Of a DNA stretch of 36,447 nucleotides, positions 1-36,447 are shown in pieces. Under the pieces are notes generated by a model that was given only the letters and a program-made list of their open reading frames with translations, ran no database searches and had not been told where the DNA came from. The position numbers and the translations under genes are program-made. This DNA is from Terramyces sp. JEL0728 (Eukaryota; Chytridiomycota; Chytridiomycetes; Rhizophydiales; Terramycetaceae): assembly GCA_027603945.1 (NCBI GenBank), contig JADIIU010000125.1, forward strand, positions 1 to 36,447, written 5' to 3'. Numbering within the stretch: the first letter of the stretch is position 1; each line of letters starts with the position of its first letter.

Positions 1-650
1 GACAACAAGGAGTTTGCACAGAGGCTTGATTTAAACAACAAACCAGGTGAACTGCCCATTGGAATGTCAAACGAAATGATCTGCAAAGATAATTCAAAGA
101 CTCTGCTTTCATATTTCCCTGATATGAAGGCGTTTAAAACCATGCCAGTCCCAGAACAAATGCCAGTATATTAGATTAATACCAGGTTAAACCGCCAAAT
201 GTAACATATATTCATGATCTGCACCTCAATAAACCTGCACCTGTATCTTCAACAACAAGATTATACGGCTTTGACCAAGTTGCAGGTGAAACCGACAGGA
301 AAGCTGCATTTGTAAACAGCAGCGCAAGCTCTTTCAGAATACCTACTTCTATTGGAAAAGCCGGAAGCAGTGGTTTCTTTAGAGAAAAGGAAAAGTTGGT
401 GGAATATCCAACAGCAACCTTCACCATTCATTATGATATATACCCCTACATTAAAATTGCTAATTATGATACAAGGATCAAGAAAGCCAATATGCTTCTG
501 CCAGAGTTTTTAGTCACTTCTCCTGCTAGGGTTGAGACAGGAATCGTGCAGCCAAGGTTTGACATAAAACATCCACTTGTGTACAAGGCAGAGAATGTCT
601 ACAGCCGCAAGTTGTTTGATAAATTCAAACCAGAACTTAAGGCAGGGTAA
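1..650 (+). CDS. Unrecognised protein, 3' part only (5' end outside window)
   Basis: The frame is open from base 1 and reaches a stop at 648-650 after removal of a 20-nt intron at 166-185 (starts GTATATTAG, ends ACCAG); without it the frame stops at 172-174. The visible ~210 residues have no recognisable domain, signal or membrane helix. They are rich in Pro, Tyr, Lys and Asn, including the stretches YPTATFTIHYDIYPY and FDIKHPLVYKAENVYSRKLF, and look like a partly disordered protein with short beta-prone pieces. The gene ends 13 bp from the 3' end of the convergent AK8 gene. Being next to AK8 could hint at a flagellar role, but that is only a guess. The coding call is firm; the function is unknown. 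Confidence 0.7.
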
Positions 651-663
651 TAAAACAAATAAT

Positions 664-2235
664 TTATTGAACTTGGCTAGGAATGGGTCTTAGCAAGTGT
701 CCTTGGACTTTTTCAAACAATCTTTCCATTGAAGGATTTTCTCCATTTTCGTCAGCTTCGCCAACCCCTTCACTCTCAATATAGTGCATAATCCCAGTTG
801 GACAGCTATTTTCCTTTAAATTATACACTTTAACGAGTTCGCGTTCCCATACATCGTAGGTTTCGAATTTAGTTTCCAAGTATTCGTTGCGATCTTGCTT
901 TGCATGTATCCATTTATCGAAATCTGCATTTTTCAGGTCGTCAGGGATTTTTTTGAGATTAACCACTCTTGCTGAATTAGGGTCGTATCTTCGGTGGATT
1001 AGTCTATTATAGCAAGTATCGTGTGACGCTTGTAGCCAGATTACTCTTATGTTAATAACGACTACCTATTTGGGACTATTCCTCGTCGGTGCAAGTATTC
1101 AGCTTCTTTATGATGGAATGGATATCCATCGAGAACCCATCCTCGCTCTAGACAATCCCTTCGTTTCAGTCTTGCGGTCAAATCTTCCGCGATGATTTCA
1201 AGTGGTACTAAATCCGGTTGTCTGATGTATGGCAAATACTTTTCGCCGTATCCAGCAGATACTTTTTCTAGCATTACCTTTTTGGCAGAAACTATATATT
1301 AGCGAGACTCACCTAAAACCGCACCAAATGTCTGAGCAATAAACTCGGCAACCGACGTTTTGCCTGATCCTGGCAATCCAGCGACCACAATCTTTAATCC
1401 TCTAGGGGCACCAGTAGCTTGTCGAATACTTAGATATCTGCAAATGTTTTCTGTTATCCCAACATCAGTTCCATCAGAGTCATTTTCCAGTCTAAATTTT
1501 CTATGGGAATGTTTAAAACATTTTAAAGCAGAAGGGATGTACTGCCTATAGATTTTCAATCTCTGCAATGCAGTAGCCAAATCTTCACCTTTTCTTCTAT
1601 TTCCTTCTTCTGGTGTTTTCATTGAAGCCAATTCTCTTTGCTTGTTTATATCTGATTTGATTCCAAAATGTTTATGGATAATCTCAGAGTCGGCAATATC
1701 AATTTCCACTGTGTTAGATGGTAAATTTACCAACATGGCCTGGGATGTGGCCTGCTTGTAACAAAGCCATCGCTTGGTTTTTGGTGCGCGGATAGCCATC
1801 AAGGATATACCCTCTTTCCACTACTTCCTGCTCTTTCAAATGGCCCAATACAATTGAAGAGATAATTGCGTCGGGCACCAATTGCCCTCTTTCAATGAAA
1901 GGTCTTGCTTGGACTCCAGCCGTCTTTTGCTTTTCATAGGCAATATCCAAAAGTTTTCCAACATTAATATACACGACATTTAGTCTGTTTGCAATTCCTT
2001 CAATCTGATATCAATATTTGGTTACCAGTGAGTTCAGTCCTGATAAGGGCGGAGTAACAACTACGATGCTCTTTCCAGGCGGTTTTGTAAAGTAATCCAT
2101 CATAAATTGAAAGGGGTCTGCCGGGCGAGAGATGATTAGTGCAGAAACAGTATCTCTAAACAAGTCGTATATTTCATGTCTATCTGCATAGTTGGCAAAC
2201 GCTTCAAGTTTCTCCTGCGTGACAATCTCCTTCAT
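664..2235 (-). CDS. AK8: Adenylate kinase 8-like, two adenylate kinase domains
   Basis: AK8 is a cilium/flagellum-associated nucleoside monophosphate kinase with tandem kinase domains. Splicing four introns (2005-2025, 1709-1730, 1292-1312, 1046-1065; 21, 22, 21, 20 nt) gives 495 aa, near the ~480 aa of animal AK8. The N-terminus (residues 1-50) has the family's YADRHEIYDLF and RPADPFQFMMDYF. Domain 1 follows, but its P-loop (about 60-68) reads TPPLSGLNS and lacks the GxGKT lysine. Its LDGYPRT motif is intact. Domain 2 has a good P-loop GLPGSGKT (272-279), then LDGYPF and the arginine-rich lid RLIHRRYDPNSARV. The start is the ATG at 2235; an upstream TTG frame has no initiator. The gene ends 13 bp from its convergent neighbour. 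Identity is sure; activity of domain 1 is doubtful. Confidence 0.9.
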
Positions 2236-2270
2236 AAACGCGTAAGATTGAGTAAAATGCAAAAAATTAT

Positions 2271-5993: not shown

Positions 5994-7781
5994 TCACTTG
6001 GAGTTTAGAAATTTTTCCATTAAAGTTGCAATCTTTTCAACTGCGCTAGTCAAGCGGTCAATGCGTTCATTCAAGGCATTCATATTAGCTTCCTTTTCTG
6101 TCTTTGGTTTTGGGTCTGAAGCTTGGGATTCGGGAGCAACTTTGTCCAACTCGTCTTTTTGAGGATAGTGTTGGAAAACCGGAGCAATAAGATTAGGAAA
6201 AGTGTATGTTTCAGTCGCATAAGTGATATCCTTGGATTCCTCAGAATTGGAATATTCGGGGACTGGCACATAATCTAAACTTGCTCCCATTTTGCTTACC
6301 AATTGGACTTTGAATGCATACACTTTGTTGCAGTTTAAATCAATCAATGCCCAAACAGATATCGAGGTATCATCTTTTGTGGTGTTGCAGTCCAAATTGA
6401 TTTCGCTTGTGGATTCCTTTATGCCCCGGAGAACAATTTTGTTCAGGTCCAACTTGGTGAAGGATAGTCCAGTGTTTTCCAAACTGATAGATGAATCAGA
6501 TTCAACTTTAGCTCGAACATAAACCCTGGTTAGAGTATATGGATTATCAAGGAAGATGAAAGCCAAATCATCCTCCTTCTTTGTTTCATATTTGAAATGC
6601 TTGAGAACATATTCGTGAATAATCGAACTGCTGTTCCCTTTGGGGTTTTGGAATGTAATCTTCAAACGAACTGGTCTATCCCTTGCAATAAGCGCTCGGT
6701 CCCACCACTTAATTTCTAGCTTACTGTCCGCTTCACTTCTTGGGACTTTGATGGTAAATTTGAGCCTTTGAGATTTGAAGTTTTCAACTGCAAAAGGGCA
6801 CTTTACATCCGTTTCAATATCGCATGGCTGGTAATCTTCGCCGATAACTCTGTATTCCGCTTTGATTAATCCAATTACAACAGGAGTTTCGATTTCGCAT
6901 TGATTGAATGCAGAAACTTCGCCTTCAAACAAATCGCAATCGGTGTGGGCATACTTTGGATTAGCTTTACATTCCAAAACAGATAGCAGCAATTGGTTGG
7001 AAAAATCCCCTTGGGATCTGAAATCACTCTTTGTTTTGTATTGCGGGACGTAGATGTCGGACCCCACTTTATTTGGTTGCGGCATACTGTAAGATTGCTT
7101 AGATTTATAGACAACTAGTCCATCAGACAAAGTTTGTTTAGTCACTAGTGTGAGTGTATCTGGATTGAACTCTATCAAGCGTGAAAAAGTTCCTTCGACG
7201 GGGTCAACTTGAATTGCGATCTTGATTTGATTGATTTTACCCTCTTTGCCAACAATCCATTCGGCAGAGCTATAGCAAACAGCGTCTCCAGAGTGAGCGA
7301 TTCGAATAGCTTCACCTGAATCTCTTCCTTTAGCCAACCTGGCTAAATCAGAGCATGAAAAAGTATTAAAGTAATTTGGTCCGGTTATTCGCAAAATCCC
7401 AACCTGCAAGACAATCAAAGGCTCGGTGATCAAAATGGAGTTTGTTGTCCATCTCAAAAGCTCTCCGACATAGACTTTCTGGGTATTATCCTCGAAAGTT
7501 TGTTCAAGAGTTTCCCATTCTTCTGCTGTATTGGAGTACTGAGTGATGTCGTTTGCCCTCGCGATAAATGTCCCATAAACGTAATCCATGTGGTGTTCAG
7601 TCCTATGCTTGTTCAAGATGCAAGGAGCTTCCTTTCCACAGCAAGGATAACTTCCATAGCTTGAATAGCAAGTCTTATGGAACGAGCAAGCTCCTTGAAC
7701 ATTCTCGTCTTCCTTGAAAGTCTAAATTAGTCGGAAAATTACATTTTCGCATTGCACACATTTTAAGATTTCTGCGGCCAT
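5994..7781 (-). CDS. Novel protein with N-terminal Cys/His zinc-binding module and C-terminal coiled coil
   Basis: The first exon is only 39 nt (7743-7781; MAAEILKCVQCEN), then a 21-nt intron (7722-7742) and one long exon, giving 588 aa. The start of exon 2 extends a Cys/His cluster: KCVQCENTF, ACSFHKTCY, YPCCGKEAPC, NKHRTEHH. This spacing (CxxC, CxFH, CC, C-x4-H-x3-HH) resembles CHORD-like zinc modules but is not a family I can name. The ~450-residue middle is beta-rich with scattered Cys and mentions no known motif. The last 35 residues (NALNERIDRLTSAVEKIATLMEKFLNSK region) form a clear heptad coiled coil, suggesting oligomerisation. No membrane span. It shares a 25-bp divergent promoter with the OYE gene. 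The gene is real; its function is unknown. Confidence 0.75.
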
Positions 7782-9495: not shown

Positions 9496-10368
9496 ATGAA
9501 CATTACCAATATCGAAAATGCCGCTTTTGCAAACAACGATTGGAAAAAGGCTGCACTAGCCCTAGCAGTACTGGTAATGTTCATGGCTTTTTTGGTACTG
9601 GCCACCGCGTTATACAATCGGAAATGGCACCCTTTCAAAAGCAAGCAGCTGGACGTGCTTTGCGTAGCATACGTTGGTGGGCTATGTTACTTGCTATCTC
9701 TGATTCAAATATATCAAATTGTAGATCAGACTGGGGTATTTGCAATTTGTCATTTGTGGTTTCTCTGGTTTCAAACGGTATTTGGCTGTTGCCTGACGGC
9801 CACTGTGCTGGGGTATAGAATGCGGCGGTTGTATTTCTTGATACAACAGACTAAAGGAGCAACGGGCTTTTGGTTTTGGTTTCCAATAGTAGCCTTCTAT
9901 CTCCCTACTCCTATACTTGTCATTTTGGCAGAGATTTTCCCTTCTACCTATGTGACACCTTCCCCTGAAGTAATGCCTGGTTCCACTAACGGAATACCTG
10001 GCTGCGTAATATACTCAAACGAGGCATGGTATTTGTATGCATTGTACTTTGCGGTCCTGCTGCAAGTAGTCCATCTGTGGGTACTGACGTTCATGGTAGC
10101 CCGTATCAGAGCTAGTTTCAACGAATTCAAAGAAAATCTAATAATCAACATCATTAGTACAGTTCTACTCTTCGGGTCGCTTGCATTGGTCGTTGTTGGA
10201 TTTAGCAATACCCCGGCTGGAAAGATTATATTATTGTTTATGGGTGCAATTTTTTCATGTGTCAGCTCAGTTGGATCCCTAATCGCACCTACTATTGGAT
10301 TGTATGTGTTTGTTAACCTAGTTTCTTTTATAAGGACTCATATCTGGCAGCTTGGAAAAAAGGAATGA
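9496..10368 (+). CDS. Seven-transmembrane protein, GPCR-like
   Basis: The 290-aa intronless protein has seven hydrophobic segments (about 20-42, 55-75, 85-108, 125-147, 178-205, 215-240, 245-275). A short N-terminus carries NIT and NAA sequences, and a basic loop follows helix 1 (YNRKWHPFKSK). A 25-residue Pro/Gly-rich extracellular-type loop with a Cys (PGSTNGIPGCVIY) lies between helices 4 and 5, with a matching Cys after helix 2 (AICHLW), as in GPCR disulfides. It resembles fungal 7TM proteins that precede RGS domains, but no RGS domain follows. The frame ends soon after helix 7. An A6 run at 10356-10361 just before the stop could hide a frameshift that would add a Ser/Thr/Gln-rich tail to 10469. 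The ligand is unknown. Confidence 0.65.
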   Translation: MNITNIENAAFANNDWKKAALALAVLVMFMAFLVLATALYNRKWHPFKSKQLDVLCVAYVGGLCYLLSLIQIYQIVDQTGVFAICHLWFLWFQTVFGCCLTATVLGYRMRRLYFLIQQTKGATGFWFWFPIVAFYLPTPILVILAEIFPSTYVTPSPEVMPGSTNGIPGCVIYSNEAWYLYALYFAVLLQVVHLWVLTFMVARIRASFNEFKENLIINIISTVLLFGSLALVVVGFSNTPAGKIILLFMGAIFSCVSSVGSLIAPTIGLYVFVNLVSFIRTHIWQLGKKE

Positions 10369-10491: not shown

Positions 10492-12331
10492 TTATTTGAT
10501 CCAATTAAGTCTCTTTACTATGATAGGCTCTTTGTTAATAACCAAACCAGATTCATTCCATGTCAGGCTGTCTTCGGTCAAGTCGGAATAGACTGGATTG
10601 CCATTGGCATCCAATATCTTGTATTTTTCATTAGATTTGGACAGAGTAAATCTACAGTTAATCAATGTATACGACTGGTTTTGATCATCCTGCAATTTGC
10701 AGTTATATTTGGTGATTAGCAGCTTCCAATAATCCAAATCTTTCATTTTTTCCAGTTCTGGTTGTGTAAATACATTAAGCGATGATGGTGTGTGTTCTGG
10801 ATGTTCAAGAATATTGCGTAAATGCGGCGGCCAAGCATTTACAGCCTCTGGAGTATACTTTATACTATGTCAGCGGAAAAAGTACCTTGCAGATCCGTCA
10901 TTTGAAAACACAATAGTCTTGCAATGGGATTTGGCTGCATTCGTAATGGCTTCTCCAAATTTCTTTGCGCTAGCCTTTCGGCCCAACTTTGCAACAGTTC
11001 CTCTTGGCACCTTTTCCACCTTTTCCACATGTACACTTTGGCCGTCATGAGTGGATCCCCACCCGCTAAATTAAAATAAGGGTTACTTTGAATCAAGCCC
11101 AAATCTCGTTGATCCAGTATAATTTAAGAGCTTTGGAAGTACTCGCAGCGTAACTAGCAAGTCATGGTCTGGAACGAGTATAGTTGATGATGAACATGAC
11201 GGATCTGCTTGCGCAATGATCGGGATAACTCTGGTTATTATAGGACTTTCAACCACAACAGAAGAAGTTTGGCGAGTTTCTTGATCAGTTTGATTCAATG
11301 CGTTCTGTCCTTCTACACTAAGGGGCGATGGATCAGGAGCATCCACAGGACGATAGTGTCCAGAATGAATTATCACTATGTTAACGCATTTTACTGGCGA
11401 CTACATCTGAATCATCAGTATAAATATCAGTTCCCCATATTGCCGACTTTCTAACAGCGATATTTCCTCTATAGCTCAAAAACTCTGCTGGTATTCTCAC
11501 TTCAAGAGCTGCAAAGTGATGTGCTTTTGTGAACGGCGGGATCAAGAATAAATCAAGGTCAACCGCTCTGTTTGAATGCGCCGTTCTACTTTTCGCCCCA
11601 GTATAATTTACATGCCCTAGGAATGTTGACGAATTTGGGTGATCCTTTGTACACAGCCGTTTGTCGTTTATAATAATGCTATCTCTTCCTAGTTTGTTCT
11701 TTACACCGTCCAGCAATGCGATAATTTCTTTTATATCATGGCCCAATTCCATTTTCGACAATTTCAGTTCGATAGCTGAAGGTTTCTTTGCTTCGCTTTT
11801 CTTTGCTTCACTTTTCTTTGATTCCGCGTTTACCTCATTTTCTTTCGATCCATCGGCCTGGTTGGGTTTATCTGTAATTTCTTTAGACTTGGCGGTGCTC
11901 TCTTTAGGTTTGTCTTTATCCGCTTTCTGTTTGGCTGATTCATCTGAATTTTCTTTCGCCCCTTCAACTTTAATCTCTGGGGATATTGGGTTCTCTGCTG
12001 GGACTCCCTCCTTTGTCTCTACTTGTTCAACTATCTCAGGGGGTTCTTGAACTGTGGTATCCTTTGTTTCTTCGTGGTCTGATTGTGGTACTTTTAAGGT
12101 GTATGATTCCAGCCCTTTCTCCTTTGCCACCCCTGGATCTTTTGGTGGTATAACTTTGAGTGTTCGAGTTACTTGCGGTTTATTTTTCCCCAACATTGGA
12201 GACAGCTTTATAGGTGGAAATTTGGGGCTGCTTTCGACATGATCGACACGAACTTTTTTCGAATCAGGCTCTCGTAGTTCGTCCTTTACTGGCAATGGCC
12301 TCTTCTTGCTTTCGCTCTCTGATGCGTCCAT
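10492..12331 (-). CDS. RXT3: Rxt3-family histone deacetylase (Rpd3L) complex subunit
   Basis: Rxt3 is a subunit of the large Rpd3 histone deacetylase complex, acting in gene repression in the nucleus. Three introns are removed: 11376-11394 (19 nt, GTAAAATGCGTTAACATAG), 11066-11086 and 10865-10885 (21 nt each), giving 592 aa. The first ~190 residues are disordered and Lys/Glu/Pro-rich, with short KKSEAKKSEAKK repeats. The Rxt3 domain follows: LEVRIPAEFLS, AIWGTDIYTDDSDVVA, IIHSGHYRP, VTLRVLPKLLNY, then RFGLDSNGWGSTHDGQSV, and near the end TPEAVNAWPP and SLTWNESGLVI. Several motifs span the splice junctions, which proves the introns. It is divergent from the next gene with 39 bp between starts. 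High confidence. Confidence 0.92.
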
Positions 12332-12917: not shown

Positions 12918-13212
12918 ATGGAGACTGCACCAATATCGTCGGTGATCAAGGACATACTAATACCAAGTTTATCGGAAATAGAAGTATGCTTGGGCGACAC
13001 AATTGAAAGCCAAAGATCGCTGAAATCGCAATTGGAGAGAATCACAGCCGGTAATTTTTTCTAATGAAGAATGCCAAGTAATTACACCAATGTTGGAGCA
13101 ACCAAAGTTGGACCAAGGGATTCAACGATGCGCTAATTTGCGAAAGAGAGTCGTGTTAATGCAAAAGAAGATTGTTGGGATACAAAACAAAGTTGATCAG
13201 CTTGTGAAATAA
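12918..13212 (+). CDS. Small coiled-coil protein, snapin/BLOC-1 subunit-like
   Basis: A 19-nt intron at 13051-13069 joins two exons into a 91-aa helical protein. Without splicing the frame ends after 49 codons. The helix-break-helix plan (IPSLSEIEVCLGDTIESQRSL, then NLRKRVVLMQKKIVGIQNKV) matches snapin, whose C-terminal helix reads ARRRVxLVNxILQNAQERL. In BLOC-1/BORC such subunits act in endosome-lysosome traffic. The similarity rests on general coiled-coil features plus the RKRVVLMQ element, so other small BLOC/BORC or kinetochore coiled coils are possible. The start is the ATG at 12918. The gene model is firm; the family name is tentative. Confidence 0.55.
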
Positions 13213-19954: not shown

Positions 19955-20146
19955 TATTGCGGTTATGTGTTGGCAAAAGTTTTCGTCTCTTTATAACTGG
20001 CAGGTGACTTATTGTCAGGTGATTGAGAATTCCTGCAAAGGGAAGCCACAAATTTGCAATAAAGCACCAATTCTGTGGAAAGGACTGCAGCCGATACGGC
20101 GGCATCGAACCTGCAATTGCACGTACGGCTGATAGAGTACATTTTA

Positions 20147-21821: not shown

Positions 21822-22721
21822 ATGCCATTAATAACGATAAGCGGATTGCCATTATCAGGAAAGACTACCAGAGCAAACGAGATTGCCAAGTACCTGGAGG
21901 ATTATATCAGTAAAAATCAGACTTCTATACGGAAGATTATTACAGTAAATGATGAATCACTCTCAATTGACAAGAAAGCTGCGTATATTGGTAACTGGTA
22001 GGTTAATCAAGATGCAAATAGTGAAAAGAAGGCCAGAGGTGCTTTGCTTTCTGCAGTGGAGCGTCACTTGAGCAGAGAGGATATTGTAATTTGTGACGGC
22101 TTGAATTACATCAAAGGATTCAGATATCAGTTATATTGTGTCGCAAGGGCATTAGGGACTCCTACCTGCACTGTATTTTTATCTTAATTGCAGGTGTTTT
22201 GTGGGTTTGATACAAATTCTGCAGTCGAACGAAATAGCAACCTGGATAAATATGAGGCAGGAATGTTGGAAAATCTGTGCTCTAGATTTGAAGAACCTGA
22301 TGGGAGGAACAGGTGGGACGCACCTTTGTTTATTGTTATTCCAAAGGATGAATCTTTAGCAATGGAAGGAAATGCGACTTCAAATGGAATCGTTGAAGCA
22401 GCAATTTTGAAAAAAGCACCAGCTCCTAATCTCTCTACTGTTGTCAAGCCATTATTGGAAACTAATTATCTTCACGAGCTTGATAAAACGACTTCAAATG
22501 TCTTGGATGTGGTGATTGACGCTCAAAAGAATGGAAGAAGTGGTGACATCAAAGTTCCACGGTCTTCTGTCCCGGTTCACTTGCCGTCTAGGAATATTTC
22601 ACTTGCAGAATTGCGTCGACTAAAGAGACAATTCATGAATATAAACAAAACTCATACATCGATGAATATGGACCAGGTATCCACAGGATTTGCAGAGTAC
22701 CTAACTACAAATCTTGATTAA
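21822..22721 (+). CDS. KTI12: Kti12, Elongator-associated P-loop protein
   Basis: Kti12 binds tRNA and Elongator and is needed for wobble-uridine modification. Two 21-nt introns (21991-22011, 22173-22193) are removed, giving 285 aa (yeast: 313). The start is MPLITISGLPLSGKTT at 21822, where the P-loop GLPLSGKTT directly follows the first strand, as in the family; the in-frame TTG upstream is not used. Walker-B-like IVICDGLNYIKGFRYQLYCVAR comes before intron 2, then VFCGFDTNSAVERN, YEAGMLENLCSRFEEPDGRNRWDAPLF, a Kti12 signature. The C-terminal LAELRRLKRQFMNINK is also typical. Both junctions restore conserved motifs. Confidence 0.95.
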
Positions 22722-22757: not shown

Positions 22758-24161
<1,404 letters not shown>

Positions 24162-25733: not shown

Positions 25734-25833
25734 TAAATTTCAGATAGAGCAGATAAATTTGCAAACCAGTGCGGATTACATGTGATTCGTCAAACTTTGA
25801 ATATTCCAGTTTATAAAAACAAACGCAATTGAA

Positions 25834-28057
25834 TTAGGCGTAGCTGGTCATGTAAAAATCATTGTTGGTACACCACGAGAGTAAGGAATGGCCAAGTCTG
25901 TCATAGAATCTGGAACCCATAACTCTGTTTCCTAACATTAATCAAGATTACTATGGGTAGATATTACTTGGGAAGGTGTCTTTTCGCAGCTTGCATATCT
26001 CAAGTCCCAAATATGAATATCAGACATTGGGTCTCCTAACGCGACCAAATTTCCATTCCTATGCAATGATGGTTTTTGGTACAGCGATGGGGCTTTTGCT
26101 TCGGCTGGAGGATCAGGTAAGTGCCATTGACTGACGTATATTTGTAGTCTGGTGTCATAGAGTTTCAAAGAAGAGTTCTTGTCAATGAAAGAAACTAGCA
26201 AAAGGTGCTTCTGTCCTGGAATTGGGAGAATTTCGCGGATCTTTTGTTATTGGAAAATACCTGGTGGTCATTCTTTCCATTCGCAGTTACAACAAGATCC
26301 CTATCCAGGTTATAACCAATCAAACGTTTGTCTTTGCCTCCAGAAAAGAGTGTATCAGTGAAATCTTGATAGTGGATAGATGTAACAGCATTGGTGTGCT
26401 CAAAGTGAACCCTTTGGGTTTTAAGAGCCTGGCCAGTACCACCAGTATGGGTCCACAGAGTAATAAGTTTATCATTACCGCCGGTCAGCCATCTAATATT
26501 ATCTGATATAGGCATTTTACCAATGGTGGTGATGTTTTTAGTATGTGGGTATTGTGTGACGTGAATGATTTTGTTGGTGAAAACTTTGTTCTTTCCTAAT
26601 GTTTGCAATTCGCAGTCATGAATAAGGGCCAGCTGGTGCAATTCGTATTGTCCGCTGTTGCTATCTGAAGAATGCTCAAGTAATTTTTCATAATTGGAAG
26701 CGACAACAAGTATATCATCAGTAATCCATTCCTATCGTTAGCCATATAAAACCATAGCCTCGCTCCTTGAGTTCTTCAACTCACTTGATGGAATTGTGTG
26801 TATCGTGTTTCTTTCCTTCAAGTCAAATACTTGGACAGTTCCGAAAATCAATAATGTCTTACCCATCATTAGGCGAGGCAAAAGCTAGGTCGGCAAACGG
26901 CCCTTCTTCCTTTACCAGGACATCGCGGGCATTTCTCCCAAAATTGGTAAGCTTGACCGATTTGAGACTGTTGAGCGTTTGTCTTGAGCCGCTGGACTTG
27001 ATTTCCCATTCAGCAACAACTGGCTCAAAAGGAACGGTGGCAGGTGGTGGATTTCCCAGAGTATTTTCAATGTACGAAGCTAGCTGTTCCTTGAAAGGAA
27101 TGTGATTTGCACCATCGTCTTCACTGACTGTCTCTCCATCCATTTCTTCAACTTCTCCTTCGAGAACAATTTCTTCAACTGGAGTTTCGGAACGTTGACG
27201 CCTTGGCGAAATCTTGTTTGCATTTTCGGAAGAATTACTATGTTCTACAATATTTTGGCGGCCAGCGTGTATGTATCCAGAGGATTGAATATTTCGGTCT
27301 TTGGGACGGTTATTGTCCCTCTGGCCACTCCATGAGCGCTCTCGAGAGTCGTCTCTAGAGTGTCTACCATTGCTCTGATAGTTGTCACCATTGTTTGAGT
27401 TGAAATTGTTCCTTCTATCAGAGGAGTCAACTGAATTGTTACGATGGCGGCCAGAATTAGAATTATTACCACTGTTTCGGTAGGTATCAGGGCTAGATTC
27501 GTAAGAGCTGGTTCTTTGTGCGCCAGAGTTTTGGCTGGGATCCTCTCTTGAAAATGGATCCTGTCTGTAGTTTCTTGGATAATCGTCATCATTGAAGTTG
27601 CCCCTTGCTTGGCCCTGATTGTCTTTTCTTTTAGAATTGACCTTTTGTTTCCTACTGAAATCTTCATCTTTATCTATAGAGTTTGACAGCGAGCGCTCTC
27701 GTTTTCTACTGACATTATCTTCAAGCCTTTCGGTTGAAATTACAACTTCCATTGCCTTGGTCATTACTTTGATCTTTTCAGTTATTTTTGTAGCTTTTTC
27801 TAAATGTGCTGAAGCTTTCTTTGCATACTCCTTGTTCTTTGCCAGATAAAAAGTCAAATCCCTTTCACTCTTCAAAATCTTTTGCATTAACTTTTCCGGC
27901 TTGTAGTTGGCAAAGTTTTCAAATTCATCATCTGAAGATATAGTTGACATGTTATCTGCCGCATCTGAGTCAAATTCACCTTACTTTTGGCAACAGGGTA
28001 GTATTCAACATCCTCAGAGTATGAAATTTTCCGTTTAGCTTTCTCTTCTGACTTCAT
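25834..28057 (-). CDS. Disordered RS/Asn-rich N-terminus fused to WD40 repeats
   Basis: I read one 706-aa protein after removing introns 27965-27984 (20 nt), 26841-26862 (22, apparent GG acceptor), 26732-26752 (21), 26241-26260 and 25932-25951 (20 each). N-terminus: acidic/basic stretch and coiled coil (KILKSERDLTFYLAKNKEYA), then ~150 disordered Arg/Ser/Asn residues. From about residue 330, WD40-type repeats: FADLAFASPNDGTVQVFDL, IRWLTGGNDKLITLWTHTG, TDTLFSGGKDKRLIGYNL, SSLKLYDTR, SDIHIWDLR and SLLSWCTNNDFYMTSYA. The first repeat is split by the GG-ending intron; if that is not spliced, the N-terminal part stops at 26859 and a second gene starts at 26866. The RS/N-rich part suggests an RNA-related role. 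Family unknown; start at 28057 uncertain. Confidence 0.65.
26841..26862 (-). other. Candidate 22-nt intron with GT donor and GG acceptor
   Basis: Minus strand reads GTAAGACATTATTG and ends TTTTCGG. Removing it turns ...SPNDG-stop into SPNDGTVQVFDL, an intact WD40 strand, and the summed coding length becomes a multiple of three. The acceptor would be canonical (TTTTCAG) with one A in place of G, so a base error or polymorphism is possible. Confidence 0.6.
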
Positions 28058-28413: not shown

Positions 28414-29771
28414 ATGTCCTACAAGGGTGTTGTGTTAGTTGGAGGACCATCAGTCGGTACAAGATTCCGCCCGCTATCCATGGATTTCCCGAAACCATTA
28501 TTTCCAATCGCTGGCCACCCTATCATTTACCACCATGTTCAAGCTCTCGCCAAAATCCCTGGAATCAAAGAAATATTACTAGTAGGGTTCTTTGAACAAG
28601 CAGTATTTGACCGGTTTCTGACTGAAATGCAAATAGAGTTTTCACATGTACAAATCAGGTAAATCGTTGTTGATTAAGGTATTTACGTGAATATCAATCA
28701 ATGGGGACAGCTGGCGGTATTCATCATTTCAGAGATGAAATTTTACGTGGAAACCCTGATGCTTTCTTTGTGTTGAACGGGGATATTGCCTGCTCATTTC
28801 CTCTTGTTCAAATGCTGGCAACCCACAGACAAAGCAATGGGCTTGGAACAGTACTTTCAATGAGAGAACACAAAGATCGTGTCAACCGATATGGTTGTAT
28901 TGTTGTCAATCCCGATACAAAGGAAGTCGATCATTTTGTCGAAAAACCTCAATCGTTTGTCTCGGATTTAATTTCTTGTGGAGTTTATGTGTTTGGAAAG
29001 GATTTGTTCAATTACATTACCAAGGCGATTGAGATTAGACGCACCAAAGAAGAAGAAGCAGGAGTTGATGAGGCTTGGAATGCAATTGGCGCATCAAACG
29101 CTGCGCTCTCTGCCAGATCCAATGAAAGGGTACAGTTAGAGCAAGATGTATTCCCATTATTGACCGGTAAAAAGCTCTTATATTCGCACACTATGGGCAG
29201 TGACGATTTCTGGATGTCCATTAAAACTGGCTCTTCAACCATCACAGCCAACCGCAAGTATCTGCAATATTTCATGCAGGCGCATCCAAGAAGATTGTCA
29301 GTACCCTCGGTTGCCCCAGCTAAACCAGCTACTCCAGAATTCCCAAATGGTAGGCAAACACCCGAAATTATTGCGCCTGCCTATATACATCCAACTGCTG
29401 TTATCCATCCTTCTGCAAAGATCGGCCCAAATGCTTTCATTGGTGCAAGAGTGCTTATTGGCCGTGGTGTGCGCGTAAGAGATGCTCTGATTCTTGATGC
29501 AGTGGAAATAAAGAATGACGCGTGCATCCTCAACTCTGTTGTTGGCTGGGAATCCAAGATTGGAGCTTGGTGCAGAGTGGAAGGATCTACTCACGATGAA
29601 GTGGAAACACATGCTAAAGATGATGCAACTACTCAAAAAGGGTTCAAAATCCCATCCGCATGCATATTTGGAAAAGGGGTTACAGTCGCTGACGAACTGG
29701 TGGTTAGAGACTGCATCGTTCTGCCTCACAAAGAAATCAAAAACTCTTTCCAAAGGGAAATTTTGATGTAA
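28414..29771 (+). CDS. GMPPA: Mannose-1-phosphate guanylyltransferase regulatory subunit alpha
   Basis: GMPPA is the GDP-mannose-binding, feedback-regulatory partner of the catalytic GMPPB in GDP-mannose synthesis for glycans and cell-wall mannan. One 20-nt intron (28659-28678) is removed, giving 445 aa (human ~420). The nucleotidyltransferase domain starts KGVVLVGGPSVGTRFRPLS, PKPLFPIAGHPII; then RYLREYQSMGTAGGIHHFRD spans the intron, FVLNGDIACSFP, and CGVYVFGKDLF. After a linker of Pro/Ala comes the left-handed beta-helix (IHPTAVIHPSAKIGPNAFIGA) and an alpha-type C-terminus VVRDCIVLPHKEIKNSF. GGPSVGTRFRPLS and the tail distinguish it from GMPPB. The start is the ATG at 28414. Confidence 0.95.
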
Positions 29772-30076: not shown

Positions 30077-32095
30077 ATGACCGAATATAAAGTCGCTAAT
30101 GTTGACGATCTGAAAGATGGCGAGATGTAGGCTGTAACTGATTCTAGGAAAGAAGTTGTTTTTGACGCTGGCAAAGCCCTGTTGTCCAGAATTAACGGAG
30201 AATGTACCTTTAACTGATGCTAGTTTTCGCAACGTCTCATCTCTGTCCGCATTATAAAGCGCCATTGAGCAAAGGAGCGATTTCCTCGGATGGACGTGTA
30301 ATGTGCCCATGGGTAACTCTCATTAACGCAGCATGGTGCATGTTTCCGTGTTCAGACGGGGGATATTGAAGACGGACCTTCAATTGATTCATTGCAATCT
30401 TTCAAAGTATCTGTAAAGGGCGGATCAGTTTATATTACTGCAACTGAAGCACAAGTAAAGGCTGGACGAAAGAAGCCTGTTTGCACAAAGTCAAATACCG
30501 CTAAAGGCGAAACCACCGTCATTATCGGAGGTGGTGCTGGTGGTTTGGTAGCTGCAGAAACTTTGAGAAAAGTAATCACCATTAATTCAGGAAGGATATG
30601 CAGGAAAGGTCATTATTATCAGTCGCGAAAGCTACCTCCCAATTGATCGGTACTATGCAACTAATGCAGCCCTAAACTTTCAAAGGCTCTCAAGATCGAT
30701 GCTGCAAAGGTTGCACTGAGAACTGAGCAAGATTTCAAGGATTTGGATATTGAAATCAGACTTTCAACTGTACCAAAAATTAATTCTAGCAAGTCTCTGC
30801 TGTTAATCCTAAAGAAAAGAGTGTAACTCTAAGCGATTCTTCCTCATTAAAGTACAATAGTTTGATTGTCGCAACTGGTGGGGATGTAACTTCGTTATTA
30901 AAATAGCCTCGTGTATTGCCATTCCCAGGACATGATTTACAAAACATTTTTGTAATGAGAACAGTGGAAGATGCAAACTATGTTGGAAAAGCCCTTGAGG
31001 AAATCACCGATCGCAAACCAAATGTTGTAATTGTCGGTTCCAGTTTCATTGGGATGGAAGCTGCCAGCATCCTTGCTAAAGTAGCCAAAGTAACTGTTAT
31101 TGGAATGGAAAAGGTGGCAGGAATTAATTATAGTATCCATTTGAAAGAGTGTTAGGAGCTGCCGTTGGTGAAGCAATGTACAAATTGAACACGAGCAACG
31201 GAATCGATTTGCAAATGGAGAAATTTGTTGAAAAATATGGCCCTTCAGCAACAGACCCAAAGAAAGTCGGTTCAGTTGTTTTGAAGGGTGGACATTCTAT
31301 CCCAGCTGATTTTGTTATTTTAGGAGCCGGGGTTATTCCAAAGACTGACTATTTGAAATCATCTGGTATCACTCTGGATAAGGATGGTGGCATTTCAGTT
31401 TTAGGTTCAATGGAAGTGCCAAATGCTGCCGATGTTTATGCTGTTGGTAAATGGCATTAATCCAGGTGATATTGCAAGATATCCATACCACATTACTGGC
31501 GAAAATATCAGAGTTGAACACTGGAATGTTGCTCAAAATCAAGGAAGAGTGGCTGCTGAAGCTATTTTGGCCAAACAAAAGGGAGAACCTCTTCCAGTCT
31601 TTAAACAAATCCCATACTTTTGGTAATTTGGTATTGATTTCAAGGACTGTCCAGTTCGGCAAATCCATTAGATATTGTGGATACGCTACCTCATTTGATG
31701 ACACTGTGGTTCAGGTAATCTGACGTTTTAGTCCTAGGGGTCCTTGGAAATGGATTCAACAGGCGGTGGATTGTCCTTTGCTGTCTTTTATCTCAGAAAA
31801 GGTAAGGTGGTTGGGGTCTGCACCTTGGCAAAAGACCCTGTCGTCTCGCATGCTTCGGAATTATTCAGACTGGGAAAGATGCCTTCTGGAGAAGAATTAA
31901 AGAATGGAAGGGATTTGCTTTCGGTCCCTTTGGAATGTAAAACAATAATTAATCGTAACAGCTTCTGAAAAATTTGTTTGCACCAAAAAAACCGAATCTG
32001 TAGCAGAAACCAAAGAGCTGAACTGGGTAACATTCGTCGCAATCCCTGCCCTCATTGTTTTACTTTCATCATTGTACTTCCTACAAGCCAAATAA
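30077..32095 (+). CDS. AIFM3-like Rieske plus FAD oxidoreductase with C-terminal membrane anchor
   Basis: Twelve introns (30127-30147, 30204-30223, 30313-30331, 30572-30590, 30650-30669, 30770-30789, 30886-30906, 31114-31133, 31447-31465, 31623-31644, 31715-31737, 31937-31961; 19-25 nt) yield 589 aa; human AIFM3 has 605. The N-terminal Rieske domain binds a 2Fe-2S cluster: HLCPHYKAPLS and MCPWHGACF (C-x-H, C-x-x-H). The FAD/NAD domain has VIIGGGAGGLVAAETL, SYLPIDRPKLSKAL, LIVATGGDPR, VVIVGSSFIGMEAA and the C-terminal VEHWNVAQNQGRVAAE, then a reductase C-domain (YCGYATSFDDTVVQGSLE). The last exon adds a hydrophobic helix (NWVTFVAIPALIVLLSSLYF) and LQAK, a tail anchor. Most densely intronic gene in the window. 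No N-terminal targeting signal. Confidence 0.95.
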
Positions 32096-32106
32096 AGCAC
32101 GTATCT

Positions 32107-32961
32107 TTATTCTACAAGTCTCTTTGCTCTCGCTTGATATATGAATTCTCGTTCCTGTTCCAGAATTTTATTAGGATCTTCCAACTCTAATACCGGCATT
32201 TGGTACTTTGGCCCATGGAATTCGCCATGGCTGGGTAAATTCTGAATAGTTCCACATCTTGGCTGGCCTTTCGACCACTCTCCTTTGTATATTTGTCTTT
32301 TTTTCAAGTAGATGAATTTGCCTGGTCCTTCTTTCTCATCATCAAACCACATTCCTTCATATCTGTCCCCATTTGCTACATTAGCGTTGTAATACCAAGC
32401 AATAGGATTCCTTGGCCGTGTCTCATCTCATGGTGCCATTCACCTTCATAAACAGAGCCGTCTTTATAATCCATTCTTCCCCACCCTTGTCTCATATCCT
32501 TACTCCACATTCCTTGATAGATCGACCCATCTGCGTAGAAATAAGTCCCAGTACCGTGACGAGTATCAGCTTGCCATAACCCAGTATAAACTTTACGCAA
32601 TTTTAAGCCTTCCTTTGCTTTACTTTTTTTATCTGGAACTTGAAGCAAAGTCTCTTTGCTGCTCTCCTTTTGGTCTGCCGTGTCTTCAGGGACAGACAGA
32701 ATGCCATATCCGTGTCGCATGTCCGATTGCCATTCTCCCATATACTGATATCCAGACGCTTTATAATAATGGCTTCCCTTTCCTTGCGTTAATTATTCTA
32801 TTACCGTGGCGAAGGTTGTCTTTCCATTCTCCAATGTACCTGTCACCATTTATGAGATAAATTGTGGAATGCGTTCCGTTCTTTTGGGATAGCTTGTCTT
32901 TTGCTTTCCATACACTTGCTTTTGGGCCTTCGGCGTGTTTTCCTAGTCTAATTGACTCCAT
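32107..32961 (-). CDS. MORN3: MORN-repeat protein, MORN3-like
   Basis: MORN3 is a small MORN-repeat protein of cilia/sperm in animals. Introns at 32783-32804 (22 nt) and 32376-32395 (20 nt) are removed, giving 270 aa (human 240). The N-terminus aligns with MORN3: WKAKDKLSQKNGTHSTIYLINGD, then repeats YIGEWKDNLRHGKGS, YMGEWQSDMRHGYGIL, YTGLWQADTRHGTGTYFYADG, YQGMWSKDMRQGWGRMDYKDG, YEGEWHHEMRHGQGIL, YEGMWFDDEKEGPGKF and YKGEWSKGQPRCGTI. The terminal segment (PVLELEDPNKILEQEREF) also matches MORN3. An insertion of ~25 Lys/Glu residues sits between repeats 2 and 3. Supports a flagellated life stage, with AK8. Confidence 0.92.
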
Positions 32962-33059: not shown

Positions 33060-34221
33060 TCAAGAAAGAATCTCTTTATTGACAAACGAACAGAGCCTTC
33101 TAGAGTACTGGAAAGGCTCTTCCACGCTATGTTCTCCATCCAAATATTCAGCACTCATAAACGACCTTAGCTTTGAGTTGGACCGTTTTAAACTCCTTTC
33201 AAGTGCCTTGTGTGTATTATACTTTTGCAATATATCTACCAATCCAAAAATATACATCTGCTGTTACCATAATATTTACTGTTTTACCATCTGCAGAATA
33301 GAATTTGTTTGGAGCTTTGCGAGTAGTTTCTGGTTCAACTATTACTGCAGTGTCGATGATTTCGGATATGCCCATTACCAAACTGTAGATTAAACATTGT
33401 TACCTGTAGTCCATAAATCCATGCTCTGCTAAAAACTGGCTATCGTGGATTATATACTCCAGCAAGGACTCTGAAGAAAGGCCGACTGTCAGAAAGCCAT
33501 GTTCCTTTAGGTATAGATAATCCAAATCTTTGAACGGATGTAGAATATAAAGTGGATCTGCATGGTAAGGTTTATCTTTGAATATCTCGGTCAATTCTGC
33601 CTCTGACACCATTGCACTACGTCCATACTCGGAACCCTTTAAATCAAACTTTAACTTTGTCCTGCTGTCAAACCAATTCTCCATTACAACGAACTGGAGC
33701 TGATTTGGTAGTGCCTCCAATGATAACTCTTCAAAATTCAGAATCTCCATGGAATATATTCCGTAATATCTAGGGAGCAGCGAATTGGGATTGCTCGCTA
33801 AATGCTGATAGTATGGGTGCCAAAATTCCATCAAATTGGCAAATTCGGAATGTTGTAGTGATTTTAACAGAAACTGGCAGTTGCAAGTTGCAAGGAATAC
33901 GGCTTGGGATTGACTATTTGACTGCAACAAAACGAGCGGATCCTGAAATGCCTCTTGGAGAGGTAGTGAATAGTTTGAGCTCTGTCGCAATGCTCTGGTA
34001 TCCACACAGTTGAATTCAGAGTATTTTACCATCCCAATTGCCGTAGAGTAAAACGAAATTGCTGTTGAATCAACGAAATTTGTATTTAGCGATTTTAAAA
34101 TGCACATGCGACACACCTCCAAGTATTCTTCCTGGGACAGCTCTGAGCAGCTATCTCTGCAAGATGAAAGAATCCAGCCAACTGCCACTAATGCGATGAT
34201 GATGGCAATTATCGCAAGCAT
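33060..34221 (-). CDS. Phosphatidylinositol phosphate kinase with N-terminal membrane anchor
   Basis: Lipid kinase of the PIP5K/PIP4K family. Introns at 33383-33403 (21 nt) and 33261-33279 (19 nt) are removed, giving 373 aa. The N-terminus (LAIIAIIIALVAVGWIL, residues 2-18) is a clear signal anchor, unusual for this family. The PIPK core follows: LLPRYYGIYSMEI, QFVVMENWF, KFDLKGSEYGR (DLKGS), LYILHPFKDLDYL, AEHGFMDYSLVMGI (across intron 1) and, across intron 2, YIFGLVDILQKYN with the IID-type catalytic Asp, then KALERSLKR. The region usually holding the glycine-rich loop is short and diverged (residues 20-110). Gene starts 44 bp after the PGAM5 stop on the same strand. Whether it is active is uncertain. 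Confidence 0.9.
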
Positions 34222-34265: not shown

Positions 34266-35131
34266 TCAATTGTATGTTTGCTTGTGGAGAGGAATATGCC
34301 CGGTTTCACCCAATCCGCGAACAGAAACTCTGCCGCCATCACTAATTGCGATTCTTGTTATCGAAGCATTGTAGAGTCCCAAATGCAACCACGCACCTGG
34401 ATCAAGCTGGAGAGCTCTGAAAAAACAATATCTTATCAGATTTCCATGCGCAACAACAACATCAACAGACTGCTTGACTTTTTCTTTTTCAATGCCTGGT
34501 CTATCTTCCGCTTGTCTATGGAAGAATTTGCGAAAAGCTAACTTAGTATGGACAAACCTGCTTCGATTCTACAGCCTTCTTGGAAAAATATACTGTCTGC
34601 TGGATTCCAGTCATAGCCTTCAGGTTTGCAGGGAGCTCCCTCGCGCAGTATTGAATCTTTTTGGAGCAGTAATGGAGCAGAAATATTTGAGGCAGCTCTA
34701 CTTTTTTGAAGCTTGTCATATATAATTGTTGCTGTTTCGTGTGCTCTTGCCATATCTGAACAGAATACTCTAACAGCAGATCCGTCTCCTTCAAGAAGCC
34801 CTTCGTGATTCAGAATTTTTGAAATGCATTCACCAGCGTGTTCCGCTTGTTCCCGACCAAGTTTAGTAAGGGCACGCAGGGGATCATTATGCAAATAATC
34901 TTCTTCTCCAGATAAACGCTTTAAATCTTTGTGATCAGAAACATACTGTCCGTGTCTGACCAATATTATATGATGCTTAGTTTTCTTTTCATTGCCACTA
35001 TTGTGCATATAGTCCCAGTTATTGTTCCATGATCTTGATATATGTCCAGTTGTAAGAATTGCGCCTGTTGTTAGTGCAAATCGAAGCGATTTCATTTTTG
35101 CAAAAATAGGCAAATGGTTCAGGATTCCCAT
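34266..35131 (-). CDS. PGAM5: PGAM5-like mitochondrial Ser/Thr phosphatase
   Basis: Histidine-phosphatase-fold protein that acts as a protein phosphatase on mitochondria. One 20-nt intron (34538-34557) is removed, giving 281 aa (human 289). An N-terminal hydrophobic segment (FALTTGAILTTGHI, ~17-30) fits the membrane anchor; HIILVRHGQY supplies the phosphoacceptor His; LTKLGREQAEHAG, VFCSDMARAHETATII, LREGAPCKPEGYDWNPADS, EGCRIEAAFRKFFHR (across the intron), VVVAHGNLIRYC (second His) and GRVSVRGLGETGHIP complete it. The start at 35131 is the first ATG; MKSLRFALTTG at 35095 would suit a targeting signal better. Neighbours PIPK and MORN3 follow on the same strand. Confidence 0.95.
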
Positions 35132-35837
35132 ATGAAAGGTTTAAATGCAATACTATTCTTGGAATTGCTCCTCTTAAAATTGGACCTCTAGATTTTGATC
35201 TATGAACAGAAATCACTCCAAAGCCTTGTCCTAATTCAGTCACTCTTGGCCATATTTCGCATCCATCGTTGCTCATTAGTACTTTACTACAGCTTCTCAT
35301 CTAAGTTTAGGGAAATGCCATGGATTGTGGCTCTCCATCAAGCCTGATTTGTCATTGTCAATCATTAAGAACAGTGTTGACACCTTCTAACATAGATCGG
35401 TGAAAACACTTGCCTGTCTCAATCAGGATGGCTTACCATTCTTAGATGTACTTCAAGGCAGGGTCACTTGAAATCAGGACGAATCCCTTGAAAAAGAGTA
35501 TAGGCTCTAGCACAAGTCAAGTTTCAAACAAATTCTGGTGTGTAGATTTTCTTTGGCTCTGAAACGCCTTCATTGGCACTGCGTATGACGACTTGTATGA
35601 TGGAAATAAGGAAATAACTACTTGGGGATGCCCAGTTCGACCTTTGTGCATACTCTTCATAGTTTTGATCACGAATTTGGACAACCAGACCCGAACCAAA
35701 CCCAATATCCTTCCAAATAAAAAATTATAAGAAGGTTTTTACTCAACACAAAAGGAGCCTAAAGTAGATCATTTACTACACGCGTTTCATTTCTCATTTA
35801 TGAATATAAATATTATGGTTTGTGCTAAAGGTCAAAA
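35132..35837. other. 706-bp region with exon-like orphan frames
   Basis: No confident gene. On the minus strand a frame at 35524-35709 reads DIGFGSGLVVQIRDQNYEEY then AQRSNWASPSS and ends EPKKIYTPEFV-stop. It has protein-like composition but no initiator; a splice acceptor GGAAG directly precedes it. Another minus frame starts at an ATG at 35300 (MRSCSKVLMSNDGCEIWPRV) and runs into the PGAM5 gene in a shadow frame. Neither matches a family I know. The rest looks like non-coding DNA and the promoter of the secreted-protein gene. Confidence 0.25.
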
Positions 35838-36447
35838 ATGAAAATCGTTTCTGTAGCTGTACTTGCCTCAATTGCCCTCGCCGCTCCTTTACCCCAGGCT
35901 AACACACAGACTGGAGTACCTCAACCTGGGCAAATCCAGCCTGGTGCTAATGTTCCGACTTCTTCACTCAATCCAACTGGCGACGCATCTTCCCAGATCA
36001 CTCCTCAGACTGGCCAAAATACTCTGACTGCTGTTCGCAACTTCTTGGGCGATGTACAGATGGTTTCCAATGCCATCAACCAGATTGGAAGTGGCCAAGT
36101 AACTGATCCAGCTACGATTGCTACATTGGCACAAATTGCATTCAATGCCGAAATCAATGAGAACGAGCAAAGACTGATTATGGTTGCAGCTGCTGGTCAA
36201 GCTGGAGCCGAAGCCAATAGCAATATCTTGACATTTACCCCAACTGTTCTCAACGGTCTTCAAGCGATTGCAAGCAATCCAAACCAAAATGCTCAACAGA
36301 TTGCCTTGCAAATGGGAACTGTCCGAGATGCTCGTATTCTCCCATCGATTTCTAATCTTGCCACTGCTGCACTTGGAAATGTTCCTGTAAACACAATCAT
36401 CCAATCAACAATCCAGCAGTCCACCACCAACAACGGTAATCCGCAAA
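35838..36447 (+). CDS. Secreted Ala/Gln/Asn-rich protein, 3' end outside window
   Basis: MKIVSVAVLASIALAAPLPQ is a textbook signal peptide, cleaved after about residue 16. A Gln/Pro/Thr-rich spacer (NTQTGVPQPGQIQPG) leads to a helical domain: NFLGDVQMVSNAINQIGSG, DPATIATLAQIAFNAEIN, ENEQRLIMVAAAGQAG, then QNAQQIALQMGTVRDARILP. The pattern resembles small fungal secreted proteins built on a FLGDV/FLNxAxxL motif and AxxAFxAExxExxQ helices, whose role is poorly defined (cell surface or effector-like). The frame is open to the window edge (203 codons). Codon use is more regular, with more C-ending codons, than in the neighbours, suggesting strong expression. It has no cysteines in the visible part. 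Confidence 0.85.
   Translation, partial: MKIVSVAVLASIALAAPLPQANTQTGVPQPGQIQPGANVPTSSLNPTGDASSQITPQTGQNTLTAVRNFLGDVQMVSNAINQIGSGQVTDPATIATLAQIAFNAEINENEQRLIMVAAAGQAGAEANSNILTFTPTVLNGLQAIASNPNQNAQQIALQMGTVRDARILPSISNLATAALGNVPVNTIIQSTIQQSTTNNGNPQ

Follow-up and report, generated by a model that had tools for sequence, protein, structure and literature searches.

Introns of 19 to 22 nucleotides in a chytrid fungus, probably of the U2 spliceosomal type

Contig JADIIU010000125.1 (C125) of the chytrid Terramyces sp. JEL0728, analysed over its entire length of 36,447 bases and called the window below, raises a simple question: are the segments of about 20 nt that interrupt its genes introns, and what machinery would remove them? 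A first-pass annotation had placed 56 introns of 19-25 nt in the window. This ultra-short set, one of the shortest on record, is real, with 46 introns of 19-23 nt recovered at the main setting of the present analysis (34-54 depending on stringency). The introns exist throughout the genome, share a fixed geometry, restore the reading frame when removed and combine constrained signals with free spacers, and five parts of a spliceosome are present in the same assembly. Judged from the sequence, they are very probably U2-type spliceosomal introns, processed by ordinary chemistry near the physical minimum. Together with Boothiomyces, Terramyces is placed in the Terramycetaceae (Chytridiomycota, Rhizophydiales). 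Both genera are free-living saprotrophs.

Length and anatomy of the introns

The assembly comprises 15,016,339 bases in 231 contigs. Introns were modelled in a sample of 236,447 bases (1.6% of the assembly) made up of the window and loci L005-L024. Two hidden Markov gene models were used. The codon-only model includes codon usage, GT...AG ends and a flat length distribution of 12-120 nt, without a branch element; it was first trained on long open reading frames (ORFs) only and, for the main run, its codon table was retrained on the earlier GT-AG decodings. The signal model learned its donor, branch and length preferences from the codon-only calls and accepts introns of up to 60 nt. Since its length prior favours 19-22 nt, only its ratio to decoys counts, and the claim on length is carried by the codon-only model and by motif counts. 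Both models are confined to coding sequence, with untranslated regions (UTRs) outside, and at least two window genes were missed: a snapin-like gene and a transporter-like gene near 24500-25800 were not called by the signal model.

With GT-AG ends, 86 of the 161 calls of the codon-only model fell at 19-22 nt (12, 43, 24 and 7 at 19, 20, 21 and 22 nt, respectively). The same length range yielded far fewer calls when the ends were replaced by decoy pairs: 8 for GA-TG, 6 for TG-GA, 6 for CT-AC, 5 for GT-AC, 3 for CT-AG, 4 for GC-AG and 12 for AT-AC. A stricter penalty left 63 of 116 calls at 19-22 nt (decoys 1-8), and with codon usage taken solely from long ORFs the count was 47 of 85 (2-4 in five decoys). 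The 23-nt class, with two codon-only calls, does not rise above the decoys (1-7). The motif GTA[ACG]...YTRAY...AG, counted on both strands of the sample, gave 84, 117, 50 and 43 matches at 19, 20, 21 and 22 nt, compared with 20 at each length in shuffled sequence and 45, 38, 45 and 51 in reversed sequence; by these controls the 19- and 20-nt classes are clear and the 21-nt class is weak. Over the whole genome, the 20-nt pattern GTANNNNNNNTTAAYNNNAG has 1,882 matches (931+951), against 163 (78+85) for the same pattern reversed, which, together with the codon-only calls, bears out the earlier suggestion of a genome-wide set. These genome-wide counts are partly doubled because both haplotypes are kept in places.

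The signal model called 266 introns in the sample: 61, 133, 48, 19 and 4 at 19, 20, 21, 22 and 23 nt and one of 41 nt. Six decoys returned 11, 7, 7, 9, 7 and 15 calls at 19-22 nt against 261 for the true ends, so that about 4% of the calls are expected to be false. The density of 1.12 introns per kb extrapolates to about 16,900 per genome, a rough figure because the assembly partly holds both haplotypes and the sample is small. In the window, four penalties gave 34, 46, 48 and 54 introns, the loosest including one call of 52 nt; the 46 of the main setting divide into 7 of 19, 17 of 20, 14 of 21, 6 of 22 and 2 of 23 nt. In the codon-only calls the length distribution is narrow and unimodal within 15-25 nt, as in other genomes with ultra-short introns.

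These introns could be only one class of a larger population, the normal long class lying in UTRs, above 120 nt or in uncalled genes. The limits of the models leave some room for this: they reach 60 or 120 nt, read coding sequence only, cover 236 kb of 15.0 Mb and miss at least two window genes. Within these limits no normal-length class was detected. An excess of longer introns was sought at 24-120 nt in the coding sequence of the sample, where GT-AG ends gave 63 calls, fewer than every decoy (147, 139, 132, 149, 144, 139 and 144, in the pair order above), and hence no sign of longer introns. Moreover, all the introns of an apoptosis-inducing-factor-like gene (AIF-like, 11), of a mitogen-activated protein kinase gene (MAPK, 9) and of Prp8 (5) are of 19-23 nt. 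A missed long class therefore seems unlikely. The statement in the first-pass annotation that no larger intron was needed agrees with the codon-only model up to 120 nt inside coding sequence.

In the signal-model set, donor position +3 is A in 241 of 266 introns. Position +4 is A in 155, C in 47, T in 37 and G in 27; +5 is G in only 56 (21%) and +6 is T in 155. The usual donor consensus is GTAAGT, and the +4 to +6 tallies indicate that it is much relaxed here. A YTRAY branch element is present in 218 of the 266 introns, as TTAAT (84), TTAAC (46), CTAAT (37), TTGAT (21), CTAAC (13), CTGAT (7), TTGAC (6) or CTGAC (4). Its position is nearly invariant. The branch A lies at position 14 from the 5' end in 113 introns, at 15 in 79 and at 16 in 16 (14 or 15 in 192/218), and is followed, up to the last G, by 5 nt in 95 and 6 nt in 101 (196/218), so that the branch and the 3' splice site keep a set distance of about 5 nt, as they do in Stentor. 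In 207 of the 218, no other AG stands between the branch and the acceptor. Although these tallies come from a model that prefers such signals, the codon-only set gives the same picture, with YTRAY in 69 of 86 introns and a distance of 5 or 6 nt from A to the last G in 58. The layout proposed in the first-pass annotation (GTA followed by A, C or G, a branch-like element, AG) is retained in its GTA, branch-like element and AG; position +4 may also be T, and the element is usually separated from AG by 2-3 nt and not by 3-7 nt.

This anatomy has several marks of the U2 type. GT-AG termini, rarely GC-AG, join coding exons, and the element upstream of AG is complementary to the GUAGUA of U2. Two GC-AG introns were encountered, one of 20 nt in Prp18 (L030; placed by reading the DNA) and one of 21 nt in SF1 (L032). 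Both have a GCAAGT donor, and this full donor may compensate for the lost T. Introns of the U12 type, removed by the minor spliceosome, carry an ATATCC or GTATCC donor and a CCTTAAC branch. The TTAAC-like branch elements do resemble the core of the latter, but the donors are without an ATCC-like run (+5 is C in 43/266, +6 in 41/266) and TTAAT (84/218) is commoner than TTAAC (46). With neither the donor nor the branch of that type in place, a minor-spliceosome origin is extremely improbable, a judgement that rests on the donor and branch tallies, no search for U11, U12 or U6atac having been made. In-frame stops occur in 44 of 45 21-nt introns of known phase. They were not used as evidence of selection, because stopless introns of this length would mostly be read through by the model and hence remain uncalled.

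Constraint between haplotypes and continuity of the proteins

Could these segments instead be insertions introduced by sequencing or assembly, or pieces of decayed genes, that are never spliced? A comparison internal to the assembly bears on this point. The assembly retains both haplotypes in places, at a divergence of 1-2% (window 1-24229 against C38:1-24500; also L026 and L027), which suggests a diploid strain, a heterokaryotic strain or a mixed culture. Contig C38 matches window positions 1-24229 in reverse at 98.2-98.9% identity. This part of the window holds 26 introns, 23 of which have a YTRAY element. In the comparison, genes with fewer than 200 coding bases and a minus-strand call at 4955-5392 overlying another gene were left out of the table, and the first window gene (630 coding sites, phase unknown, 8 substitutions) was kept out of the codon-position counts.

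All 26 introns are present in the second contig with the same length. The splice signals show no substitution (GTA 0/78, branch element 0/115, AG 0/52; total 0/245), whereas the spacers differ at 10 of 292 positions (3.4%; Fisher p=0.0025). Codon positions 1, 2 and 3 carry 20, 11 and 128 substitutions in 5,763 sites each (0.35, 0.19 and 2.22%), as expected of functional genes, and 70 of 5,773 sites (1.2%) differ outside the modelled genes. Spacers differ from codon positions 1+2 (31/11,526; p=4e-8) and not from position 3 (128/5,763; p=0.22). Indels are absent from the introns: every one of the 12 deletion runs and all but one of the 12 insertions fall outside modelled genes, and the exception is a 9-base insertion in coding sequence (a thirteenth record is an overhang at the window end). 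Conservation of the splice signals while the rest drifts is also expected of the U2 type. Read from the DNA, the pattern is what spliced introns should show, and it rests on no homologue. An exact second copy on C38 of the intron of an Rxt3 gene had raised the idea of a spreading element; the copy is simply the other haplotype, 98.9% identical over 3,019 bases.

Homologous proteins give a second line of evidence. The spliced AIF-like, MAPK and Prp8 proteins were each compared with 20 homologues hand-picked from 120 listed, excluding Terramycetaceae and partial proteins. A junction was considered supported when at least 80% of the homologues were gap-free within ±5 residues in a pairwise alignment (AIF-like, MAPK) or within ±6 residues (Prp8). 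Supported junctions numbered 10 of 11, 8 of 9 and 5 of 5, respectively, or 23 of 25 in total (the Prp8 stretch ends before the stop). For MAPK, a column-based count reached only 4 of 9, with insertions in single homologues opening columns, and the pairwise count was used instead. Pfam domains run across the junctions in six spliced proteins (kinase, adenylate kinase, KTI12, histidine phosphatase, Rxt3 and Rieske/Pyr_redox), and residues 8-342 of the MAPK align with a solved MAPK.

The AIF-like gene (Rieske plus FAD/NAD oxidoreductase; Pfam Rieske and Pyr_redox_2) lies on the plus strand at 30077..31968 and encodes 555 aa once 11 introns are removed. The signal model and the homologue junction check agree on 30127..30147 (21 nt), 30204..30223 (20 nt), 30313..30331 and 30572..30590 (19 nt each), 30650..30669 and 30770..30789 (20 nt each), 30886..30906 (21 nt), 31114..31133 (20 nt, GTG donor) and 31623..31644 (22 nt). 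The 19-nt intron at 31447..31465 is also called by the codon-only model; the deposited gene model retains it and ends there. The last intron, 31715..31737 (23 nt, signal model), has the weakest junction of the gene. The MAPK gene (22758..24161, minus strand; Pfam kinase) encodes 404 aa after removal of nine introns. Eight combine a signal-model call with a supported junction: 24067..24087 and 23910..23930 (21 nt each), 23832..23853 and 23617..23638 (22 nt each), 23464..23486 (23 nt, 19/20 homologues gap-free), 23372..23391 (20 nt), 23191..23212 (22 nt, spacer differing between haplotypes) and 22998..23016 (19 nt). The ninth, 22900..22918 (19 nt), lies in a poorly conserved tail and also has a spacer difference between haplotypes; it is spliced in the deposited model, as is the intron before it.

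Deposited models of this contig match the introns called here at 8 of 9 places in the MAPK (P0241) and at 5 of the first 9 in the AIF-like gene (P0129). In this sense the intron set is already latent in public data. P0129 ends after 377 aa, compared with 555 aa in the present model, and conserved pieces are lost from both P0129 and P0241 at places where their models treat ultra-short introns differently. A hard floor of 20 nt in the deposited annotation does not account for this: P0129 mishandles all three of its 19-nt introns, but P0241 splices both of its own. That some segments are left unspliced or spliced otherwise in these models is what artefactual or decayed sequence might produce. However, the recurrence of the same 26 introns in a second contig, with no signal change, the codon-position pattern and the interruption of even Prp8 make such an origin very improbable. 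A related case may exist in the sister genus. The deposited Prp8 of Boothiomyces sp. JEL0866 (P0001) reads MPPEHLR-LSFTNCR-KIIRDHG where the present genome encodes MPPEHLR-KIIRDHG with a 20-nt intron, so that its seven-residue insert falls exactly at the first Prp8 intron site. From the sequence, this looks like a stopless 21-nt intron translated as coding, that is, an annotation error in the public record. If so, Boothiomyces would have the same kind of intron.

Spliceosome parts and a possible mechanism

Seven spliceosome parts were sought and five were found: Prp8, U2, SF1, Slu7 and Prp18, but neither U1 nor U6. The U2 small nuclear RNA (snRNA) matches its Rfam family with 140 bits and has an intact GTAGTA. 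Over its main exon, Prp8 shares 98% identity with that of Boothiomyces sp. JEL0866, the next closest being Batrachochytrium dendrobatidis and Entophlyctis luteolus at 86%. The spliceosome genes are themselves interrupted by such introns: Prp8 has five of 19-22 nt in the part examined, SF1 and Slu7 have three each and Prp18 has a 21-nt intron at the gene start. In yeast, Slu7 and Prp18 matter less when the branch and the 3' splice site are close. Loss of either protein as an explanation of the small size was considered and set aside, as both are present. The snRNAs, SF1 and Prp8 had been named in the first-pass annotation as the components to inspect; U2, SF1 and Prp8 were found, U1 and U6 were not. 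Its central claim, that these are real spliceosomal introns, is supported by the length peak, the fixed branch element, the five parts, the continuity with homologues and the constraint between haplotypes.

Several observations weigh in the other direction. The case rests on DNA, and excision is predicted. No YTRAY match is present in 48 of the 266 signal-model introns and in 17 of the 86 codon-only introns, and the 22-nt motif count (43) is not above that of reversed sequence (51). Two junctions in conserved genes are unsupported (AIF-like 11, with 11 of 20 homologues gap-free, and MAPK 9, with 1 of 20), and the deposited gene models disagree with the called introns at some places. No U1 was matched in the assembly, by a search that cannot show absence. 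Nor was U6 found with the Rfam cut-off, with two core patterns at up to three mismatches or by BLAST with human U6, which likewise does not show absence, as these searches would overlook a U6 that is yeast-like, interrupted or unassembled. The U6 gene may have diverged, may contain an intron or may be lacking from the assembly. Two candidates on C199 and C111 (27.4 and 26.9 bits, cut-off 44) were rejected, since ACAGAGA is present and the rest of the core is not; the two are copies of one another at 98.9% identity.

The failure to find U1 and U6, and a length shorter than most spliceosomes are known to accept, might point to removal by some other route: tRNA-type or Ire1-type processing, self-splicing, translational bypass or DNA elimination as in ciliates. 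But none of these readily accommodates GT-AG ends, rare GC-AG introns with a GCAAGT donor and a YTRAY element, set at a constant distance and matching the GTAGTA of U2, in a genome with Prp8, SF1, Slu7 and Prp18. Such routes are accordingly given hardly any weight here.

If a U2-type spliceosome is at work, the intron can be pictured as a ruler in two parts, with some 14-15 nt separating the 5' end from the A of the YTRAY branch and a further 5-6 nt to the end of AG. Each part varies by about one base, which would explain the range of 19-22 nt. Splicing would be efficient and follow the conventional two-step route. The 5' splice site would be read mainly as GTA, with weak information at +4 to +6, and the first AG past the branch would be taken, as in 207/218. 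In general, recognition of the 5' end falls to U1 and U6, U2 base-pairs around the branch, and an AG close to the branch serves as the 3' splice site. Here, where the branch A is at 14-15, only a few bases would separate the part read by U6 from the start of the U2 helix, so that U1 and U2 are unlikely to occupy their full footprints at the same time. As both hardly fit side by side on 14 nt, U1 and U2 probably act in sequence; as a solution, U1 might pass the 5' splice site on to U6, or GTA might be recognised by itself.

A stronger version would make the ruler obligate. Only introns with 14-16 nt between the 5' end and the branch A, and 5-6 nt between that A and the 3' end, would be accepted, normal-length introns would be unusable, and the snRNAs responsible for recognising the 5' splice site would have co-evolved while Prp8, SF1, Slu7 and Prp18 stayed conventional. 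The unrecognised U6 core (within three mismatches), the unrecognised U1 and the low frequency of G at +5 (21%) are the basis for the proposed co-evolution. This version is a tentative one and is thought rather unlikely to hold.

Comparison with known systems and other introns of the window

Introns of similar size are known from several lineages, and the cited systems agree with the earlier remark that such lengths occur in chlorarachniophyte nucleomorphs and ciliates and lie far below the usual fungal size. In the heterotrich ciliate Stentor coeruleus, introns are 15-16 nt long; the branch A occupies position 10 of 15 without a strong consensus, the loop is of 10 nt with a 5-nt tail, and Cwc25 and Isy1 are altered (PMC9505925). 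The two systems have in common a narrow size range, GT-AG ends, a stringent GTA, a fixed branch A, a tail of about 5 nt, a conserved Prp8 and the GUAGUA of U2; in the chytrid, by contrast, the branch A lies at 14-15 within a clear YTRAY, the loop is 4-5 nt longer and the host is a fungus. By analogy between these two lineages, 5-6 nt may be a lower limit that such tails share, with lineages differing in the loop.

Chlorarachniophyte nucleomorph introns are of nearly the same length (18-21 nt) and also numerous (865 in B. natans), but the nucleomorph is a relic endosymbiont nucleus with a shortened U1 (102 nt) and U5 (PMC6461891), whereas the present case is a fungus with a 15 Mb assembly and some 17,000 introns by extrapolation. 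The mikrocytids Mikrocytos and Paramikrocytos, with introns of 16-17 nt (224 in M. mackini), resemble it in narrow length and conserved sequence; they are parasites with a reduced spliceosome of 17-19 proteins (PMC10245619), whereas here five of the seven parts sought were found and Prp8 is not divergent. Paramecium and Nyctotherus likewise have only ultra-short introns, but theirs are about 5 nt longer (approximately 25 nt), in a different major group, and selection on in-frame stops in 3n introns has been described (PMC5014332). Type B introns of Trichomonas (24 introns of about 23-25 nt) form a short uniform class beside a longer one of 56-196 nt, unlike the present genome, in which no long class was detected in coding sequence (PMC12316389). 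Cryptococcus neoformans is also a fungus rich in so-called ultra-short introns, indeed the richest in short introns among the fungi compared, but there the term denotes introns below 60 nt (mean 56 nt), two to three times longer than here (PMC11913375).

No description of Boothiomyces or Terramyces introns, nor of such introns in a fungus with these spliceosome parts, is among the matches listed in the open-access literature, with subscription papers and preprints outside this scope; in PMC11210171, both matches to 'intron' are a company name. The kind of intron is thus already known. What is new is the fungal host, with five of the seven parts sought and a Prp8 similar to those of other chytrids, together with a clear branch element whose position is fixed. 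Ultra-short introns have been known from relic nuclei, ciliates and reduced parasites, often with a changed or shrunken spliceosome as the explanation. Here Prp8 is near-standard, SF1, Slu7 and Prp18 are present, and extrapolation gives ten thousand or more introns of 19-22 nt, which separates intron miniaturisation from the loss of these four proteins. A loop of 14-15 nt and a tail of 5-6 nt would also provide structural models with a geometric bound and a test of how little RNA splicing needs. In addition, gene models and RNA-seq mappers with the usual intron minima may damage annotation in the Terramycetaceae.

Elsewhere in the window, both examples singled out in the first-pass annotation are at their places with the sequences given. 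The 19-nt intron of the Rxt3 gene (Pfam Rxt3) at 11376..11394 on the minus strand reads GTAAAATGCGTTAACATAG and is followed by two introns of 21 nt, 11066..11086 (spacer differing between haplotypes) and 10865..10885, all three called by both models. That of the snapin-like gene at 13051..13069 on the plus strand (19 nt) reads GTAATTTTTTCTAATGAAG; it was found by reading the DNA directly, the gene being uncalled by the signal model, and its removal gives an open frame up to a stop.

The remaining plus-strand introns include one of 20 nt at 166..185 (both models) and, from the signal model, one of 20 nt at 10302..10321 with two spacer differences between haplotypes, two of 21 nt in the KTI12 gene (Pfam) at 21991..22011 and 22173..22193, the latter with a haplotype difference in its spacer, and one of 20 nt at 28659..28678 in what is presumably a nucleotidyltransferase gene. 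The other introns are on the minus strand. Those of the adenylate-kinase-domain gene (Pfam) are at 2005..2025 (21 nt), 1709..1730 (22 nt) and 1292..1312 (21 nt, GTG donor), called by both models, and at 1046..1065 (20 nt, signal model), where the spacer differs between haplotypes. The signal model alone called 7722..7742 (21 nt), 27965..27984 (20 nt), 33383..33403 (21 nt) and, in a histidine phosphatase-family gene (Pfam), 34538..34557 (20 nt), as well as 32783..32804 (22 nt) and 32376..32395 (20 nt) in a gene that we take to encode a MORN-repeat protein. A presumed WD40 protein gene has introns at 26732..26752 (21 nt) and 26241..26260 (20 nt), called by both models, and at 25932..25951 (20 nt, signal model).

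Five more interrupt a gene that reads, in our estimation, like an RRM/PUF protein. Both models called 16282..16301 (20 nt), where the acceptor is ambiguous and the codon-only model places it 3 nt further (23 nt), 15667..15686 (20 nt, two spacer differences between haplotypes) and 14598..14616 (19 nt); 15161..15180 (20 nt, GTG donor) and 13995..14015 (21 nt, spacer differing between haplotypes) come from the signal model. Finally, four adjacent ORFs of about 100 aa lie on the minus strand at 16972-19990. They are alike by eye and two of them have ...DWDTKLELYRTEKRKS... in common, so that they are perhaps a local tandem family.

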